Position numbers and translations under genes: made by a program. Below the pieces are notes generated by a model. The model searched no databases and had not been told where the DNA came from. It saw nothing but the letters and a program-made list of their open reading frames with translations. DNA of 36,252 nucleotides from a virus, in the IMG/VR virus record IMGVR_UViG_3300028177_000014, positions 1 through 36,252 of that record; one strand, 5' to 3'. How positions within the stretch are numbered: the first letter of the stretch is position 1; every line of letters starts with the position of its first letter. Of the stretch, positions 1 to 8,812 are shown one piece after another.

Positions 1-1972
1 CATCAAAGTTCGTAGCGGTCAACCTGGAAGCCGATCCAATTGAAGTAACATTAGGCTGTGCCGCGGTGTTCAATGTTCCATTGATTGCGGTGAAGTCTCC
101 ATTGCTTGCGGTGATCCGGTTCATGGATCCAACGCTTGTGATATTTGGTTGTGCCGCAGTCTGAAGAGTTCCCGTGATATTTGTTCCGTTGAAATTCGTT
201 CCGTCAAAATCGGTTGCAGTTAGCCGGGAAGCCGATCCAATTGAAGTTATATTAAGTTGTGCCGCGGTTCCAATTGCCCCATTGATTGTTGTGAAATTCC
301 CGGTTGTTGCGGTAACTGTCTGAAACTTCCCATCACTAGCTGAGGTTTGCCCGATTGGTGTGCCATCAATTACCCCGCCATCAACATCAATATCTGAAAA
401 TGTTTTTGTTCCGTTTACTGTTTCATTGGTTGCCGTATGGACAACGCCACCAATCCCGGAACCATTGCCGTTCAAGAAATTGAAGGTTCCAGTATCCCCG
501 GTAACAAGTGCCGTAACCGAAAGCGTTGTTCCGGAAAGAGTTCCGGTGCTGGTAATATCCGCGCCTGAGATATCCCCGGTTGCGCCAATGGTTCCAGCCG
601 CTTCGAAGTCACCATTTACAACCAGTTCTTTCGAAGGCGTTGGAGTTCCAATGCCAACCTTGCCCGTTGGTGATATTGTCATCCTGACAGAATCCGCAGT
701 ATAAAGCCGCAGGGTATCATCATCGGCGGTAAGCTCTGCGAGAATCTTGGTATCCGTATCCGCATCCGAAATACTTGTTCCGCCGGCTATGTTGGTAAGG
801 TTGGAACCGTCACCATAAAAGGAAGCGGCCGTAACATTTACCGCAACATCAACGGAACCAAGGATTGTTGAAATGTTTGCGTAAGTTACCGAAGCGGTTG
901 TTCCCGAAAGCGTTGGACCTGACACAGTTCCAGAAAAAGAAACATCAACAACGCTTGAGATATCACCGGAAATTGAGGCGTCCCCAGAAAGAGAAAGATC
1001 GGTTCCCGATATTGTTGAAGAGAAGGTTCCCCCGGCGCTGGTAAGATAAGCGAAGCGGGCAATTGAACTGGTTGTTTGCCCAATGGAACTGGAATCCAAA
1101 GTTGAAGCGGTGATTGCTACCGCCCCCAGGGTTCCGCCATCAATTGAAACATTGCCATCATCTTCAAGTGCCATTGAACCCAGGCCAAGCAAGGTTCTTT
1201 GAGTAGCGGTGTTGACTTCTGATATTGCGCCCGATTGATAGGCAAAGAAGATATTAGCCGCGGTTGGTGTAATGTCTGCGATATCTTGAACATTAGAATT
1301 GCCAAAGGTTCCAGCAAAACTTGACCCCGCTATCGCCGCACCGTCAATTGTTCCACCATCAATATTCACGGAATCATTTGTTTGATAGGCCATTGCCGCA
1401 AGCCCAAGTTGGGCCTTCCGATTGTCGGTTGTATACTTGGTAAGGTTAGCGCCGTCGTAAGCTAGAATCTCACCGGCATTCAAACTAATTTGGGCCAACT
1501 CATCCAGCCGGCTATCATGGCCTTGAACATCTTGCCCAATGTTCAAATCCGCCAATCCAATAAATTGATCGGTTGTAATGTTCACATAGGAATTACCCGA
1601 TACCCAAAGCATTGTTTGATTCGAGGTACTACCAAAGAACCTCATTTCCCAGGTATCGGGATCGTATCCAATAACATCGCATTCATCTGTTACCGGATCC
1701 TGGGAATCTTCACCGCAAATTCTAATTTCCAAAACTTCACGAAGTCCCGCAAGTTCTTCATCGGTATAGCTTCCAACGACCAATTGCAATGTTGTGATTG
1801 CAAAATTTCCCGCTGACCCGGTTGTAAGAGTTCCGGTTGTTGCCGTTATAGACTGCGCGGAAAGGTTGGAATGGAAAGGGTATAAAGTGTTGGCGTTGGT
1901 GTCAGCCGAAAAACAAAGTGTGAATGAGGACAAAAGGAAAAACAATGCCCCGATTGTAATAAATCTTTTCAT
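1..1972 (-). CDS. Tail fibre protein, N-terminal part (gene continues at 36252)
   Basis: This is the first 657 codons of a fibre gene that leaves the window at position 1 and resumes in frame at 36252; the joined protein is 1205 residues. The ATG at 1972 opens a Sec-like signal peptide: KR, then a hydrophobic stretch of about 16 residues, then a possible signal peptidase I site after FSA. Next come beta-rich segments, a module with GDGSNLTNI and VGIGTPTPSKELVVNG as found in many fibre and adhesin stalks, and the first copies of a repeat of the type TAAQPNITSVGS-RLTAT. The repeats suggest a long trimeric beta shaft. The role is probably receptor binding at the tail tip. The gene lies directly downstream of a 390-residue fibre-like paralogue. 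The fibre-like nature is clear; the receptor is unknown, and a signal peptide on a virion protein is odd. Confidence 0.85.
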   Translation of the reverse strand, partial: MKRFITIGALFFLLSSFTLCFSADTNANTLYPFHSNLSAQSITATTGTLTTGSAGNFAITTLQLVVGSYTDEELAGLREVLEIRICGEDSQDPVTDECDVIGYDPDTWEMRFFGSTSNQTMLWVSGNSYVNITTDQFIGLADLNIGQDVQGHDSRLDELAQISLNAGEILAYDGANLTKYTTDNRKAQLGLAAMAYQTNDSVNIDGGTIDGAAIAGSSFAGTFGNSNVQDIADITPTAANIFFAYQSGAISEVNTATQRTLLGLGSMALEDDGNVSIDGGTLGAVAITASTLDSSSIGQTTSSIARFAYLTSAGGTFSSTISGTDLSLSGDASISGDISSVVDVSFSGTVSGPTLSGTTASVTYANISTILGSVDVAVNVTAASFYGDGSNLTNIAGGTSISDADTDTKILAELTADDDTLRLYTADSVRMTISPTGKVGIGTPTPSKELVVNGDFEAAGTIGATGDISGADITSTGTLSGTTLSVTALVTGDTGTFNFLNGNGSGIGGVVHTATNETVNGTKTFSDIDVDGGVIDGTPIGQTSASDGKFQTVTATTGNFTTINGAIGTAAQLNITSIGSASRLTATDFDGTNFNGTNITGTLQTAAQPNITSVGSMNRITASNGDFTAINGTLNTAAQPNVTSIGSASRLTATNFD

Positions 1973-1993
1973 CCTCATTCACTCCCTTATTCC

Positions 1994-3166
1994 TTAGTGA
2001 GAATTACAAGTATAGGAACTTGCTCCAGTTCCAAAACAATGAATCCTCATCCCATCGTCGGCCAACTGCAAACTGTTACCGCTCCCGTTTATGGTGTTGC
2101 CATCACCGGGATCAATGTAAGCGTTGGTTGTTGCAAGAGTTCTTCCGGCATCTTCAAAAGGATAGTACCGCCCGGCCGCGGTTGTATCCGGAAGAGTTAC
2201 ACGAAAAGCGGAAGCCGCGGAAGAAGTATCAATTAAATTCAAGCCCCCGTGGGAAACCTGGGTTCCCGCGGTGATAACTGTGTAATTGAACTTATAAGTG
2301 TTGTTAGCTTCAAGGGTTGTATTGGTAACGGTCACACCGTCGATGCTTCCCCCGTCGATATCAACATTGTTCTTGTCCTGGGTATGAATGTCTCCAAGCT
2401 CTCCAAACCTTACAAGCTCGGTTGCTTCGTCGGCCGCTTCACTAGACTTTGGAGCGGATCCAAAGGTTTTCACACCGTTGACGGTTTGATTCCCCGTGAG
2501 AACTACAACATTAGAAAGCCCCGAACCATCGCCGCTAATGGATCCGGAAAAGCTAATGTCCGCGGAAGCGGAAAGGGTTGTTGCTGAAATGGTTCCACTT
2601 GAAGAAGCGTCCCCATTAACAACCAAAGCTCTATCCGGTGTAGCGGTTCCAATTCCAACGGATCCGGTTGGTAACACCGTGAGCGCAACCGATGAATCCA
2701 TTGTTATTTGGAAATAGGAACCATCCGTCACCGTGGCGTTAGAATCCCCATCCGTGATATTAGATCCCGCGCTTAAGTTGGTGAGTCCGGAACCGTCCCC
2801 TGAAAAGGTTGCCCCGGTAACATTGCCGCTAAAGTTTGCGGAAGTTCCCGAAATGCTTGTTACCCCCAGGGTTGTAATTGCGCCATCAGAAGCGGTGAAA
2901 CCGCCGTCATCATCAACACTCAAAACGGTTGCGCCACCATCGTTTTTTAAGTTGATCCCGTTTCCGTCCGGTGCCTGTAAATTGCTGACTCCGATTCTTT
3001 CCCCGGCCTTTTGATCCCAGGAATTTGCAACGTAAGTGAAAAAGGTTTCCGCGTTCGTGTCGGCCGCCTTCAATACAAGAGGCATTGCAAATGCCCCAAC
3101 AAACAAAATTGCCATTAGCCCGTTTAGGGCGCTGGCGTGTTTTCTGAACCATCCAAAAATGTTCAT
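1994..3166 (-). CDS. Fibre-like stalk protein with signal peptide
   Basis: A 390-residue protein related to the long fibre downstream. I place the start at the ATG at 3166 because GAAGGG lies just upstream and the protein then begins with a signal peptide (basic WFRKH, a hydrophobic run ending PLVLKA). The longer reading frame from 3256 has a non-phage-like arginine-rich start overlapping the previous gene. The mature N-terminus reads ADTNAET, almost the same as ADTNANT in the long fibre. It also shares the GDGSGLTNL, VGIGTATPDRALVVNG and NQTVNGVKTF motifs with that fibre. The C-terminal 130 residues differ and may form the tip, with YTCNSH at the end. Probable role: an additional tail fibre or fibre base. 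It could instead be an exported adhesin expressed during infection. Confidence 0.7.
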   Translation of the reverse strand: MNIFGWFRKHASALNGLMAILFVGAFAMPLVLKAADTNAETFFTYVANSWDQKAGERIGVSNLQAPDGNGINLKNDGGATVLSVDDDGGFTASDGAITTLGVTSISGTSANFSGNVTGATFSGDGSGLTNLSAGSNITDGDSNATVTDGSYFQITMDSSVALTVLPTGSVGIGTATPDRALVVNGDASSSGTISATTLSASADISFSGSISGDGSGLSNVVVLTGNQTVNGVKTFGSAPKSSEAADEATELVRFGELGDIHTQDKNNVDIDGGSIDGVTVTNTTLEANNTYKFNYTVITAGTQVSHGGLNLIDTSSAASAFRVTLPDTTAAGRYYPFEDAGRTLATTNAYIDPGDGNTINGSGNSLQLADDGMRIHCFGTGASSYTCNSH

Positions 3167-3185
3167 AACATCGTCCCTTCGCCCT

Positions 3186-3878
3186 CTATGGGGCCTTAAT
3201 TCTCCAACCCGTCGAAGCTCCCAGGTAAACCAGGAACAACCGGGTATAGTTGTCATTGATTAGAATATTATTTGTTTCACTCATTATCTTTGCGCCACCT
3301 GTCAAAATGCGGATTGAATTCACAGAAGCGTTCCCCGCGTCGTAAACCTCAAACCAATTCCCAATGGAAGTTGTTGGCGGTGTTATCTCACAAGAGGCAA
3401 CAAGCGTGTTGCAAATAATTCTTTCCTTGTTTCCCGCCGTATAATCAGAAGCCGTAACAACAACGCTTGGAAGTGATGAAGCGCCCGTTGGAACATTGGT
3501 CAACTGGGAACCATCGCCTATGAATGCGCCGGCCCTGACCTCGCCTTCAACATCAAGTTCCTTTTCCGGAACCTTCTGGATTCCAACCTTTACCCCGGCA
3601 ACATCAATGAAAATAATATCCGAAGTTCCCGCTTTATTCTGAACCCGAATATTATTGTCATCGGTTGTCGGCCGGATCTTATCGGCGCTGATATGATCCG
3701 TTGTTTCAATAACGCCGGTTGTTTGAATATTGACACCCGTTGACCATGTTCCGGTTGCTGGTAGCAGGGTTGAATTGAGAGTTCCCGTTGTAATGCGGTC
3801 GGCGTTGATCGAACGCCGAACAAGATTATTTGCCCCAAGGATTGAGGCCGCAAGAAAGAATACTAGAACTAATTTCAT
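3186..3878 (-). CDS. Short fibre-like protein with signal peptide
   Basis: A 230-residue protein that begins MKLVLVFFLAASILGA, a typical Sec signal peptide. The mature part carries VGIQKVPEKELDVEG followed by GDGSQLTNVP, the same module order as in the two longer fibre proteins, so it is a third member of this fibre set. The C-terminal 100 residues, with an NWFEVYDAGNAS segment, look like a small beta-sandwich tip. Its ATG overlaps the stop of the 105-residue gene upstream by four bases (ATGA), so the two are translationally coupled in the tail operon. The exact role is unknown. Confidence 0.65.
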   Translation of the reverse strand: MKLVLVFFLAASILGANNLVRRSINADRITTGTLNSTLLPATGTWSTGVNIQTTGVIETTDHISADKIRPTTDDNNIRVQNKAGTSDIIFIDVAGVKVGIQKVPEKELDVEGEVRAGAFIGDGSQLTNVPTGASSLPSVVVTASDYTAGNKERIICNTLVASCEITPPTTSIGNWFEVYDAGNASVNSIRILTGGAKIMSETNNILINDNYTRLFLVYLGASTGWRIKAP

Positions 3879-4234: not shown

Positions 4235-7200
4235 CTAGACCGTGATTGGTCCGGCGGCGGCGGATTCGTTTTCACCCAGGTCAACCGCAGTCACCCAGAA
4301 ATCCCCAACTTCCGTTGAAGAAACAAAGGATTGCGCAAAGGCGGCATCCCGAATTGTTGCGGCACCAAAGCCCGCACCAACCGCCCCCTTGTAAAGATTG
4401 AACTGCGTGATCTTCCAGGTTGCGGAATTGCTTGTGTCCCATCTGAAATTGTAAAGGTTCCCAAGATCGGTATTGGTGAAGTTCGTTGGAACGCTTGGCG
4501 CCGTTACCGTGAAAGCTTTTTCATAAGTGTTCACCGATTCATTCCCGGCGGTATCAACGGCCTTGATATGATAAATGAAATCCCCGGTTCCAAATGGCGT
4601 TTCAGAAAAGAAAGTTGCCGGGCCATCAAAAACAATATCGGCGGTTGCCCAGGTTGAAGCCCCATCCCCGCGCTTGAGAATATATCTTTCCACGTCGGCC
4701 GCTTGAACCGCGGTCCAATTGATCGAAACACTCAAAGCGGAAAGAGTAAAGTTGGCCGCAACAACATCATCCGGCGGCGTTCCCTTTCCGATAATCGTAT
4801 GAGGACCGAAAGCAACCCAACCGCTAACCTCTCCAAATCTAGTCATGTACCGAATGTATCCGGAATACTCAATGCCGGTTTCAACATCTGAAAAGATCAA
4901 TTCATTGTTGTCGGCGGAAGTGATCGGCGGAGATTCCCAACCGGACCCAGGGGAATCGGTTCTTCTGAAAAGAGCATGAAGAGTTTCCGCCGCCGCATTG
5001 GAGGCAATAGGCGGCCGCAAAACAACTTTCATTACAGCCCGAAAAGATCCATCAGAATCACGGATCATTACCGATTCATCTGAAATGATTTGATCAACAA
5101 CCGGATCCGGCGGCCTGATTCGTGGCGAAGACTTGGGAACTGTGATATTCGAAGTATAGGCCGGGATTCCACCGGAAACCGCATCATCCAAACCAGGATA
5201 CGCATGATCAACGCAATGAATCGTTGCGCCCAACTCTTCCTTGTAAACGATTTTCTCAACTACAAGTTCAATGGATTCGGAACCCTGTTCCCCAACCTGG
5301 GTAAGATCCCCATTCACAACAAGACCTTCATCCAAATCCGATGAAACTTCGAAGGTATCGTTGAAACCGCTTGCCAAAACTGTCACCGTGATAAGATTTG
5401 AATCCGCATCATCTTCACGGATCCGCATTGAATAGTTGGTTGCTATCAGGGTATCGATCTTTTGCACTAGTTGAATTTGAGTGACCTTGCCCCCGGCAAT
5501 AGTAAGCGCCTTTATCCGGCCCCAACCAAGACCAACTAGAATCACATCATGCGTAAAATGGATTAAATCACCCCTGGTACAAATCAGGTTTTCAACATCA
5601 GTTTCAAATTGGTGTCCTTCCGGCCGAAGCTTTGCTTCCGCAATATAGATTCTTCCAAGCGTCCAAACTTGATCCGGATCCGTGACCCCCCAAAGATCCA
5701 TATCCTCCAACTCGGTTGCATTGTTTTCAGTGTAGCCATCATCATAAACAATACGTTCGTCCATTTGGAAACCGGCGTTTTCGTTTTCAAAGCGGATCCG
5801 TAAGCCATGCGGGATCCTTTGAAATTTCTTTTGCCCGGAATAGTTGCGGGAATTTGCCGGCGTGAAGTGTTGAACAACAATGCTCTTTTCCTCATCAATC
5901 AAAACAGTGAATTTCCCATCAACGGAAATAAACTTTCCCCGGCCGGTTGCGGCTAAGTTTTGGCACACCTCAAAAAGCGGGCTAACCGTATCAATAACAA
6001 CATTTACGGCGTACCCCTTAGCGGTGCAATGATCGGCAAAAGCTTTGATTCCATCAAAATCAATCTTGCTTGCGGCAATGGTTCGCTTGAAAGCGTTGCC
6101 GGTGAGTGCATCCAAGATTGCCCAGCCAGGGTTGTTTGATCTGGCCCGGTTCAAGATTGCCGCCCCATCCCATGAAGGAAGCCGGGAACCAACCCGAATG
6201 TTCCCTTCGGTAATCAATCCATTTAATTGTTCCGTGATCTTGATACGCATCATCCAAAGCAACAACTTATTTGTATTGATAGGGTCGCTTGACTTGAAAA
6301 CCCTTATGGCGGTCAAGTACATCTCATCAATAATGCTTGTTGAAGTGGCGTCGGCCGTGACTCTTTTTACCCGGATATCATAGGCGCCTTCCGCTAACCC
6401 CTGCATTTCATAAGTTTTGCGAACCGTCGAAGATGACGCGGCGGTGATCGTTTTCTTTATGCTTCCGGCGGAAGTCATGAAATCATCATTGACCGGCGCC
6501 CCTGGCGTTGCATACCCGCCAACGAAATGAACACCGCCCAGGCTATCAGCCGCGGCCGCCATCCCATGCCGCCCCAAGGGAAACGGATCATTGGGCGTGA
6601 CAATAAAAGAACCGGAAAGCAAATCAATAATATAGGCTTCAATTACCGCGTTGCCGCTGGTTGCACTTGTGGCACCCCCGGCGTATAGAAGTTTTCGGCC
6701 GCCCAGGGGTACAACGCTTGGCCGGTATGTTGCGGTGTATTCCAATATTCTTTGGGTCCAAGTATAAATCCAAACCTTTGCACCACCGCCCAAATCCTCA
6801 TACTTCAATACCAAGTTTTGCATATCATCATTCATGGTTCCGTCAATATAGGATCCGCCGAACAGGTAAATATATTGTTGATCGGTTCCAACATCGCCTT
6901 CATCAACATGAGCTTCCGCGCCAATGTAGTTATCATCCGGGTAACTACCCTGAGTATAGAAATCAAAATCAATTGCATTGCCGGCGAAATCAACCAGAAA
7001 CATCGAATCCGCGCCGGGCTTGGCTGTCCCGTAACCATCCCGCCCACCGTAAACCGTGATGATATCTCCAACACTCGGCAAGTTTTGATGAAGCGCAACA
7101 TGATCTTTTCTTTGCTGGTTTGCGGAAAGAGCGAATCCGTCGGACCAAGAATCCAGAGCAATATCATAAATCCGAACAGTATCTTCCAAAAGAACGCTTG

Positions 7201-8812
7201 TTGTTGTTCCGCCAATACAATAAATTTTGTCATTGAAAAGAATTGCCCGGTGATGAGAAACGCCGGTTGCCCCTGGGTAATCTGCAATTGCTATCCATTG
7301 GCTCGTTGCAAAATCATACTTGTAACAAGCAACGGTGTTTGTTGCGCCGGTAGTAGTTCCAGAGATGACATACATCGCATTCGTTATCGGGTCATAAACG
7401 GAAGCGGCATTTGCAATATCGATTGGGTAATTGTCTCCGCTAACCGAAAGAACGCCGGAAGTGTCCACGAAGGGAACCCAGTTTGAACCGCCGGTTGGTG
7501 CTATCTCTAAATTGAATTCAACTGTTCGCGGTGTTCGTGCGCCGCTGGAATTGAAAGTTGCCAAACCTTTTGGGAAAGTAATATCAACGCTAACACCCCG
7601 CGCGGATCCCGCGCTTGTTCGAACGGTTGCGGCGTCAACTTCCCGAACAAGCACACTTAAGGCATCTTCTTCAATGTTCGGAATCCAAAACGCCTTATCT
7701 GTATCGGTAAGATCCCCCCACCTTGCGAACTTATGATTGATCCCGGAAAAGTTTTCAATTGCGGTTTCGCCTATCTTCACCTGATCAATTTCAAGATCGA
7801 ACAAACTGTTCGCATATCCAACGCCGAACACTACCCGCAAATATTGATCGTTATCAATGACCTCCGTCCATTCGTTTATCTTGTTGGGATAAAGAACCCT
7901 GGTTCCATAAATCTTTGAAAAAGGCCCATATGGGCTGAACTGGTTTGATATCCCGGTTGTTGAATGAACATCTGGATCTCTTGAAACTTGATGACGAACC
8001 GGCAATTGTGGCGGCGGCGCAAGTGAGCTAATCAATAGCCCGGCCCCGAAATTCACTATCCCGGAAGCAATCCTTGTGGATACTCCCAGGGTTCCGGCTA
8101 ATCCTTCCGCCAACGCCGGCCCCAGGGTAAGCAATGCGATTGTTGCGACGACTCCCAGAATATCCTTTGCGTCATCGCTCCCGGCTGGAAGTACCCGAAT
8201 GACAACCGATACCCCTGGGCGCGGCCGGCAATGATCATAGAATTGCGGCATAAGTGGATGCCCGTTCAAGGAAACGGAAACAAAGTGGTTTTCAATTCCC
8301 ATCTGCTCCAACACCTTCTTGATGGAACTTCCGGAAGACACAAAACGGAAACTTCGTTTTGACGAAAGGATCGGGTCAACCTGGGCGATAACCGGAACCA
8401 TCGTTTCAACAACTTCTCGATTCCGATAGTACCCCTCAATTCTCTTGTTCCATCGGATCGAATCCAAGCGCTCGGCCACTACATTACAACCCCGTTTTGA
8501 ATGGATGAAGTATCCATTATCAACGAAAATTCCGATATGCCCAGGAAGCCCATTAAAAGCGAAAAGTACAATATCGAACGGTAAGAGGTCATGCGGATCC
8601 GCGCCTACCCATCCCGGCCGTGACTCTTCAATTTTTCCGCTTATCGCCTTAATATCGCGGACTGATTTGTATTCAAGATGTTCCGGAAGCTCAATCCCCA
8701 ATTCACGTTGATACACCAAGCGGATCAAGCCCCAACAATCAACGCCGGATTCATCCCTTCCGAATTCTTTGAAAGGCAATCCGATATAACTATTTGCCCA
8801 ATCCTTTATCAT
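4235..8812 (-). CDS. Tail tip protein: NlpC/P60 + gpI/gpJ-like fusion with Kelch insert
   Basis: 1525 residues joining functions that are separate in lambda (K, I, J). Residues 1-135 are an NlpC/P60 peptidase: C26 in GVDCWGLI, H92 in GHIGIF and H104 in YFIHSK give the expected Cys-His-His set, probably for cutting peptidoglycan during DNA entry. Residues 137-210 are gpI-like (ubiquitin-like, SLNGHPLMP, RPGVSVVIRVLPAG), followed by a hydrophobic region at 215-265 ending ISSLAPPP, the usual start of the J-type hub. Residues 455-785 are six Kelch-like blades (YVISG, YCIGG, VYGG, LFGG, YAGG, FVGG) inserted in the J region. J-like sequence then resumes, and the last 190 residues contain two fibronectin-type-III-like repeats. 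The start follows a DUF1833 gene with a four-base overlap. Confidence 0.9.
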   Translation of the reverse strand: MIKDWANSYIGLPFKEFGRDESGVDCWGLIRLVYQRELGIELPEHLEYKSVRDIKAISGKIEESRPGWVGADPHDLLPFDIVLFAFNGLPGHIGIFVDNGYFIHSKRGCNVVAERLDSIRWNKRIEGYYRNREVVETMVPVIAQVDPILSSKRSFRFVSSGSSIKKVLEQMGIENHFVSVSLNGHPLMPQFYDHCRPRPGVSVVIRVLPAGSDDAKDILGVVATIALLTLGPALAEGLAGTLGVSTRIASGIVNFGAGLLISSLAPPPQLPVRHQVSRDPDVHSTTGISNQFSPYGPFSKIYGTRVLYPNKINEWTEVIDNDQYLRVVFGVGYANSLFDLEIDQVKIGETAIENFSGINHKFARWGDLTDTDKAFWIPNIEEDALSVLVREVDAATVRTSAGSARGVSVDITFPKGLATFNSSGARTPRTVEFNLEIAPTGGSNWVPFVDTSGVLSVSGDNYPIDIANAASVYDPITNAMYVISGTTTGATNTVACYKYDFATSQWIAIADYPGATGVSHHRAILFNDKIYCIGGTTTSVLLEDTVRIYDIALDSWSDGFALSANQQRKDHVALHQNLPSVGDIITVYGGRDGYGTAKPGADSMFLVDFAGNAIDFDFYTQGSYPDDNYIGAEAHVDEGDVGTDQQYIYLFGGSYIDGTMNDDMQNLVLKYEDLGGGAKVWIYTWTQRILEYTATYRPSVVPLGGRKLLYAGGATSATSGNAVIEAYIIDLLSGSFIVTPNDPFPLGRHGMAAAADSLGGVHFVGGYATPGAPVNDDFMTSAGSIKKTITAASSSTVRKTYEMQGLAEGAYDIRVKRVTADATSTSIIDEMYLTAIRVFKSSDPINTNKLLLWMMRIKITEQLNGLITEGNIRVGSRLPSWDGAAILNRARSNNPGWAILDALTGNAFKRTIAASKIDFDGIKAFADHCTAKGYAVNVVIDTVSPLFEVCQNLAATGRGKFISVDGKFTVLIDEEKSIVVQHFTPANSRNYSGQKKFQRIPHGLRIRFENENAGFQMDERIVYDDGYTENNATELEDMDLWGVTDPDQVWTLGRIYIAEAKLRPEGHQFETDVENLICTRGDLIHFTHDVILVGLGWGRIKALTIAGGKVTQIQLVQKIDTLIATNYSMRIREDDADSNLITVTVLASGFNDTFEVSSDLDEGLVVNGDLTQVGEQGSESIELVVEKIVYKEELGATIHCVDHAYPGLDDAVSGGIPAYTSNITVPKSSPRIRPPDPVVDQIISDESVMIRDSDGSFRAVMKVVLRPPIASNAAAETLHALFRRTDSPGSGWESPPITSADNNELIFSDVETGIEYSGYIRYMTRFGEVSGWVAFGPHTIIGKGTPPDDVVAANFTLSALSVSINWTAVQAADVERYILKRGDGASTWATADIVFDGPATFFSETPFGTGDFIYHIKAVDTAGNESVNTYEKAFTVTAPSVPTNFTNTDLGNLYNFRWDTSNSATWKITQFNLYKGAVGAGFGAATIRDAAFAQSFVSSTEVGDFWVTAVDLGENESAAAGPITV

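Follow-up and report, generated by a model that had tools for sequence, protein, structure and literature searches.

A predicted Kelch beta-propeller occupies one FNIII-A loop of a lambda gpJ-type phage tail hub and may serve in host-surface binding

The window (the whole stretch of viral DNA analysed here, 36,252 nucleotides) encodes on its minus strand a 1525-residue protein that is a lambda gpJ-type tail hub of a long-tailed bacterial virus. Profile comparison matches it to PHROG 31, annotated 'central tail fiber J' (3.7e-88), and gpJ-type hub sequence makes up most of the chain from residue ~130 onward, apart from a Kelch-type insert. The nearest structures to the predicted hub identified by Foldseek are the tail tips of Sf11 and lambda (5.6e-19 to 1.6e-12). 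In hhalign comparisons, a profile of 74 homologues aligns with lambda gpJ at an E-value of 3.9e-17, the hub domains HDII-HDIV being homologous. The features of the protein are collected in Table 1.

The N-terminus carries an NlpC/P60 domain resembling lambda gpK, followed by a gpI-like segment for which a profile of 131 homologues aligns with lambda gpI (hhalign probability 75.8, E 2.3e-5). With both fused before J, the K-, I- and J-type parts form one chain in the window protein. Neither the NlpC/P60 fusion nor the gpI-like segment was mentioned in the earlier note, which had been made from the sequence alone. NlpC/P60 is a separate gene in most relatives, for example RHph_Y3_1 and RcapMu, and is also joined to J in Curvibacter phage P26059A (L003) and at two other loci, L156 and L189. 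At the C-terminal end, Pfam gave no match to Phage_Tail_Tip or Ig_GpJ_C in the window protein, with the lambda control matching Ig_GpJ_C, and divergent versions of these domains could escape such a search. Two fibre-like genes lie downstream of J on the same strand (window 2-1978 and 1994-3256), with weak BppL_N matches below the cut-off (0.015 and 0.0056, respectively). A 244-codon open frame on the plus strand (window 6752-7486) runs opposite the Kelch segment and nothing marks it as a gene.

Table 1. Coordinates of the hub protein and its parts (window numbering), with loop-insert examples from two other loci.
Feature	Residues	Position	Strand	Basis
gpJ-type tail hub / tip protein	1525 aa	4235..8812	-	ORF; PHROG 31; tail-tip structure matches
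Fused N-terminal NlpC/P60 domain (lambda gpK-like)	13-126	8435..8776	-	Pfam NLPC_P60, 1.8e-11
gpI-like segment with hydrophobic stretch	~177-300	7913..8284	-	lambda gpI 59-196, hhalign
N-terminal half of FNIII-A (HDII-ins2)	~382-445	7478..7669	-	PF24801 profile 4-65, 1.6e-7 alone
Inserted six-bladed Kelch beta-propeller (predicted)	~449-786	6455..7468	-	Pfam; PDB phmmer; AlphaFold; Foldseek; VIA-align; gap in relatives
Blade 1 motif YVISG	481	7358..7372	-	
Blade 2 motif YCIGG	531	7208..7222	-	site of best single Kelch_6 match, residues 520-558
Blade 3 motif VYGG	587	7043..7054	-	
Blade 4 motif LFGG	650	6854..6865	-	
Blade 5 motif YAGG	710	6674..6685	-	
Blade 6 motif FVGG	763	6515..6526	-	
C-terminal half of FNIII-A	~786-838	6299..6457	-	PF24801 profile 70-122, 7.3e-12 alone
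Remaining hub domains (HDII/HDIII/HDIV equivalent)	~840-1124	5441..6295	-	hhalign to lambda gpJ; AlphaFold pLDDT mostly >90
C-terminal Ig/FNIII-like region	~1225-1525	4238..5140	-	Pfam
Examples of ~135-residue loop family		L100:5945-6472, L068:2461-2913		

The Kelch segment interrupts a single loop of the FNIII-A domain. The Pfam family FNIII-A_GpJ (PF24801) matches the window protein in two pieces, one on each side of the insert, and together with the PHROG 31 match this confirms the earlier reading that J-type sequence flanks the insert on both sides. The insert comprises ~338 residues and forms a clean gap in the alignment with seven cultured-phage J proteins. When the 74-homologue profile is aligned with lambda gpJ, the insertion point maps to lambda residues ~148-152. 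The strands that border it (residues 429-439 and 786-791) are confidently modelled in the AlphaFold hub model. In lambda gpJ, FNIII-A comprises residues 72-215, touches the gpI plug and is itself an insertion within the HDII-insertion domain (PMC10721106). Also named HDII-ins2, it rotates at lambda tip opening (PMC11101478). The chain of the window protein is nested, with HDII containing the HDII-insertion domain, the latter containing FNIII-A and FNIII-A containing the Kelch segment. Location of the whole propeller in one FNIII-A loop of a gpJ-type hub is well supported.

The inserted segment is predicted to fold into a six-bladed Kelch beta-propeller. Six regularly spaced blade motifs had been proposed, and each of the six is present once, at successive spacings of 50, 55, 63, 60 and 53 residues. 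The proposed bounds of residues 455-785 fall within the Kelch segment, whose best limits extend a few residues further on the N-terminal side (Table 1). When the isolated segment was searched with Pfam, matches above the respective cut-offs were obtained for Kelch_6 (3.2e-12, 46.4 bits against a cut-off of 25.3, in three stretches), PF24681 (1e-14, 54.8 bits against 50) and Kelch_1 (25.5 bits against 20.1). A phmmer search of the PDB matched the segment to a solved Kelch protein, 9tsn, at 9.9e-15. Given the Pfam and 9tsn scores, the six Kelch motifs exceed chance. An AlphaFold prediction using J homologues only yielded a confident hub and pLDDT values of about 27-63 for the insert. A second model of the insert, based on an alignment of 34 Kelch-type sequences that we selected from other viral loci, reached moderate confidence with a mean pLDDT of 71.7 and a pTM of 0.78. 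The insert model depends on this selection; the sequence matches are independent of it. The model matches the Kelch domain of LZTR1 in Foldseek (9.4e-14) and in VIA-align (Z 31.8, rmsd 2.5 over 290 residues), and its residues 13-344 align with six-bladed Kelch domains. Taken together, the sequence matches and the predicted structure make the assignment of residues ~449-786 to a six-bladed Kelch propeller well supported, in agreement with the fold proposed in the earlier note.

Kelch domains are found elsewhere in phages. Single-sequence searches of cultured phages and of viral and genome contigs, which may leave out near-identical records, identified no close relatives of the Kelch segment, and a single-sequence scan with the whole window protein returned no matches. 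A scan starting from the Kelch side found Kelch proteins at 68 viral loci and a J hub at none of these (0/68). Among these proteins are Mu-like tail fibres (L208-L216, for example L208:3072-5378) that combine a Phage_tail_fib N-terminus with a C-terminal Kelch propeller; it is at this end that fibres usually carry their binding head. Among cultured phages, 84 records contain Kelch proteins, most of them from Pseudomonas jumbo phages, and none of the 60 records listed out of these 84 has a J annotation. A second hub with a comparable insert is encoded by the 4,935-base viral contig L182, whose J protein carries a ~340-residue Kelch-type insert in the same FNIII-A loop (Pfam Kelch_1 2.5e-5, above the cut-off; 9tsn 2.7e-5). 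With one Kelch repeat over the cut-off, the L182 propeller is considered putative. The hubs of L182 and the window are 37% identical (BLAST, 1e-74) and the similarity between their inserts is not significant in BLAST (E 0.08), so that either the inserts have diverged far faster than the hubs or the two were gained separately.

The FNIII-A loop is variable among relatives of the window hub. We gathered J homologues from cultured phages as well as from viral and genome contigs and measured the spacing of the two FNIII-A halves. The loop carries at least 90 extra residues in 41 of 155 distinct J homologues, a proportion that is no general frequency as the searches were seeded with the window's own hub. 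No domain is present there in the other 114, showing that the insert is not a normal part of J. Grouped by BLAST, the 41 inserts comprise a family of 28, a trio, a PA14-linked pair and eight singletons, the last including the window, L182 and a duplicated FNIII-A (L071). The inserts of the 28-member family are ~135 residues long, have no Pfam match and share the recurring pattern 'D..tG....G..P...ItDeR'. The pair consists of L156, whose insert matches Pfam PA14 (L156:6446-7042, 3.1e-8), and L189 (L189:5280-10448), whose insert joins that of L156 by BLAST; the Pfam PA14 match itself is confined to L156. On a tree of 112 J proteins, insert presence requires about 13 changes, at least four of which are forced by well-supported branches. 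In a set of 385 alphaproteobacterial genomes, six contain a J match at 1e-20 and none of these six loci has a Kelch-sized gap; gaps of ~85 and ~180 residues are present in two of them and one match is incomplete. A second variable site, with about 60-160 extra residues, lies nearer the N-terminal side of FNIII-A in L062, L073, L089, L100, L045 and L132. The idea that insert-bearing hubs have shorter C-termini was not supported (medians of 548 and 561 residues). The different loop occupants allow the tentative proposal, which we hold at somewhat below an even chance, that in phages infecting Gram-negative bacteria the FNIII-A loop of lambda-type hubs serves generally as a socket for interchangeable host-binding domains (Kelch, PA14, the ~135-residue family and others). 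It would then be a host-range module that has gone unrecognised alongside the tail fibres and the C-terminal tip.

Propellers in phage host recognition and added modules in hub loops are already known, and a Kelch insert in gpJ is a variant of these arrangements. Lambda gpJ shares the homologous hub domains and FNIII-A with the window protein, but its FNIII-A loop lacks a domain where the window protein has the Kelch propeller. The window protein also differs in containing the NlpC/P60 and gpI-like parts in the same chain and in that no receptor-binding domain of the lambda type is recognisable at its C-terminus. In the evolved Dit and Tal proteins of Gram-positive phages, carbohydrate-binding modules are set into loops of distal tail or hub proteins that are otherwise conserved (PMC7291167). 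This is similar to the loop insertion found in the window protein, although those modules are attached to the galectin domains of Dit or the N-terminus of Tal, whereas the window protein has a Kelch domain in FNIII-A with putative binding function. The receptor-binding protein gp45 of phi11 contains a propeller with a putative GlcNAc cavity and, like PRD1 P2 and PhiKZ gp131C, exemplifies propellers in phage host recognition (PMC4901313). These propellers, however, have five or seven blades and belong to separate proteins, receptor-binding or peripheral ones, and are not Kelch inserts of a hub. The Mu-like fibres share a six-bladed-type Kelch domain in a host-contact protein, but there it caps the fibre C-terminus. 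The earlier note knew of no described J protein with such an insert. We likewise found no description of a Kelch insert in gpJ in the open-access literature; the novelty is qualified by the Kelch-type insert of L182 and by Salmonella phage Jersey gp32, a gpJ-like hub whose HDII-ins finger, in this same part of J, bears an added domain (HDII-ins3, a proposed antireceptor; PMC13243795). The Jersey domain is Ig-like and not a propeller, and Jersey has a weak FNIII-A match that continues through the loop without a break, so that the added domain probably occupies another site.

The Kelch propeller in the FNIII-A loop is most likely a host-surface-binding module, present three times around the tip and docking it before injection, a reading in which we place fair though not high confidence. 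The strands on both sides of the insert are kept and FNIII-A could fold around the propeller, whose first and last strands adjoin, as suits insertion into a loop. J is a trimer in lambda, so that three propellers would be arranged around the tip, both the trimeric state and the exposure of the propeller being argued by analogy with lambda. The insert had been suggested to project from the central hub; its insertion in the hub holds, but FNIII-A is a side domain at the lambda position, which would give three lateral modules instead of one axial module. These modules may bind a surface ligand, probably a glycan or else a protein loop exposed there, as accessory or primary contacts to the host. 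As lambda FNIII-A touches the gpI plug and HDII-ins2 rotates at opening, binding at this domain could, more speculatively, also influence tip opening. Support for a receptor-binding role is indirect and comes from the exchangeable loop domains including PA14, the Kelch-capped phage fibres and the modules inserted in other hubs (PMC7291167). Other observations pull the other way. The same phage has separate fibre-like genes downstream, and most loop occupants come from a single family that has no assigned function, so that the slot may instead have a role in assembly or stability.

Kelch domains are chiefly protein-binding platforms, and many of the top fold matches of the insert model are peptide-binding adaptors. 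The propeller could accordingly be a structural or protein-protein scaffold that stiffens the tip or docks a tail protein, for example a side fibre encoded by the fibre-like genes that follow J. We regard this as unlikely, as the 114 homologues with an empty loop have the same hub and do without a domain there, and as the unrelated folds found in the loop are more in keeping with an outward-facing module open to exchange than with a docking part that stays the same. The Kelch inserts of the window and L182, not detectably alike despite their related hubs, also argue against a scaffold. An enzyme altering host surface sugars, like the Kelch-fold sialic acid epimerase NanM or galactose oxidase, is suggested by alignment of the model with NanM/YjhT (2uvk, VIA-align Z 30.1), but this score is no higher than those of non-enzymatic Kelch domains and the segment has no NANM match in Pfam, whereas stronger phage Kelch proteins did match NANM, making catalysis very improbable. 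Least probable of all is a recent neutral insertion with no selected role in a permissive loop, since, for all that the loop tolerates many inserts, the reading frame and six blades are intact, a comparable domain occurs in the J protein of L182, and the insert and both flanking J stretches have the same GC content (48.2%), which speaks against a very recent foreign piece.

Overall, the earlier note had read the fold and the insertion of the Kelch domain correctly, and the host-binding function it suggested is partly supported. For the lambda hub, host recognition is assigned to the C-terminal tip. Should the FNIII-A loop represent a second, exchangeable binding site, the host range of many environmental siphophages may be set in part there, at a site hidden under the annotation label 'central tail fiber J'. 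With a Kelch domain on the part of gpJ that contacts the plug and moves at lambda tip opening, a link between surface binding and injection becomes directly testable.
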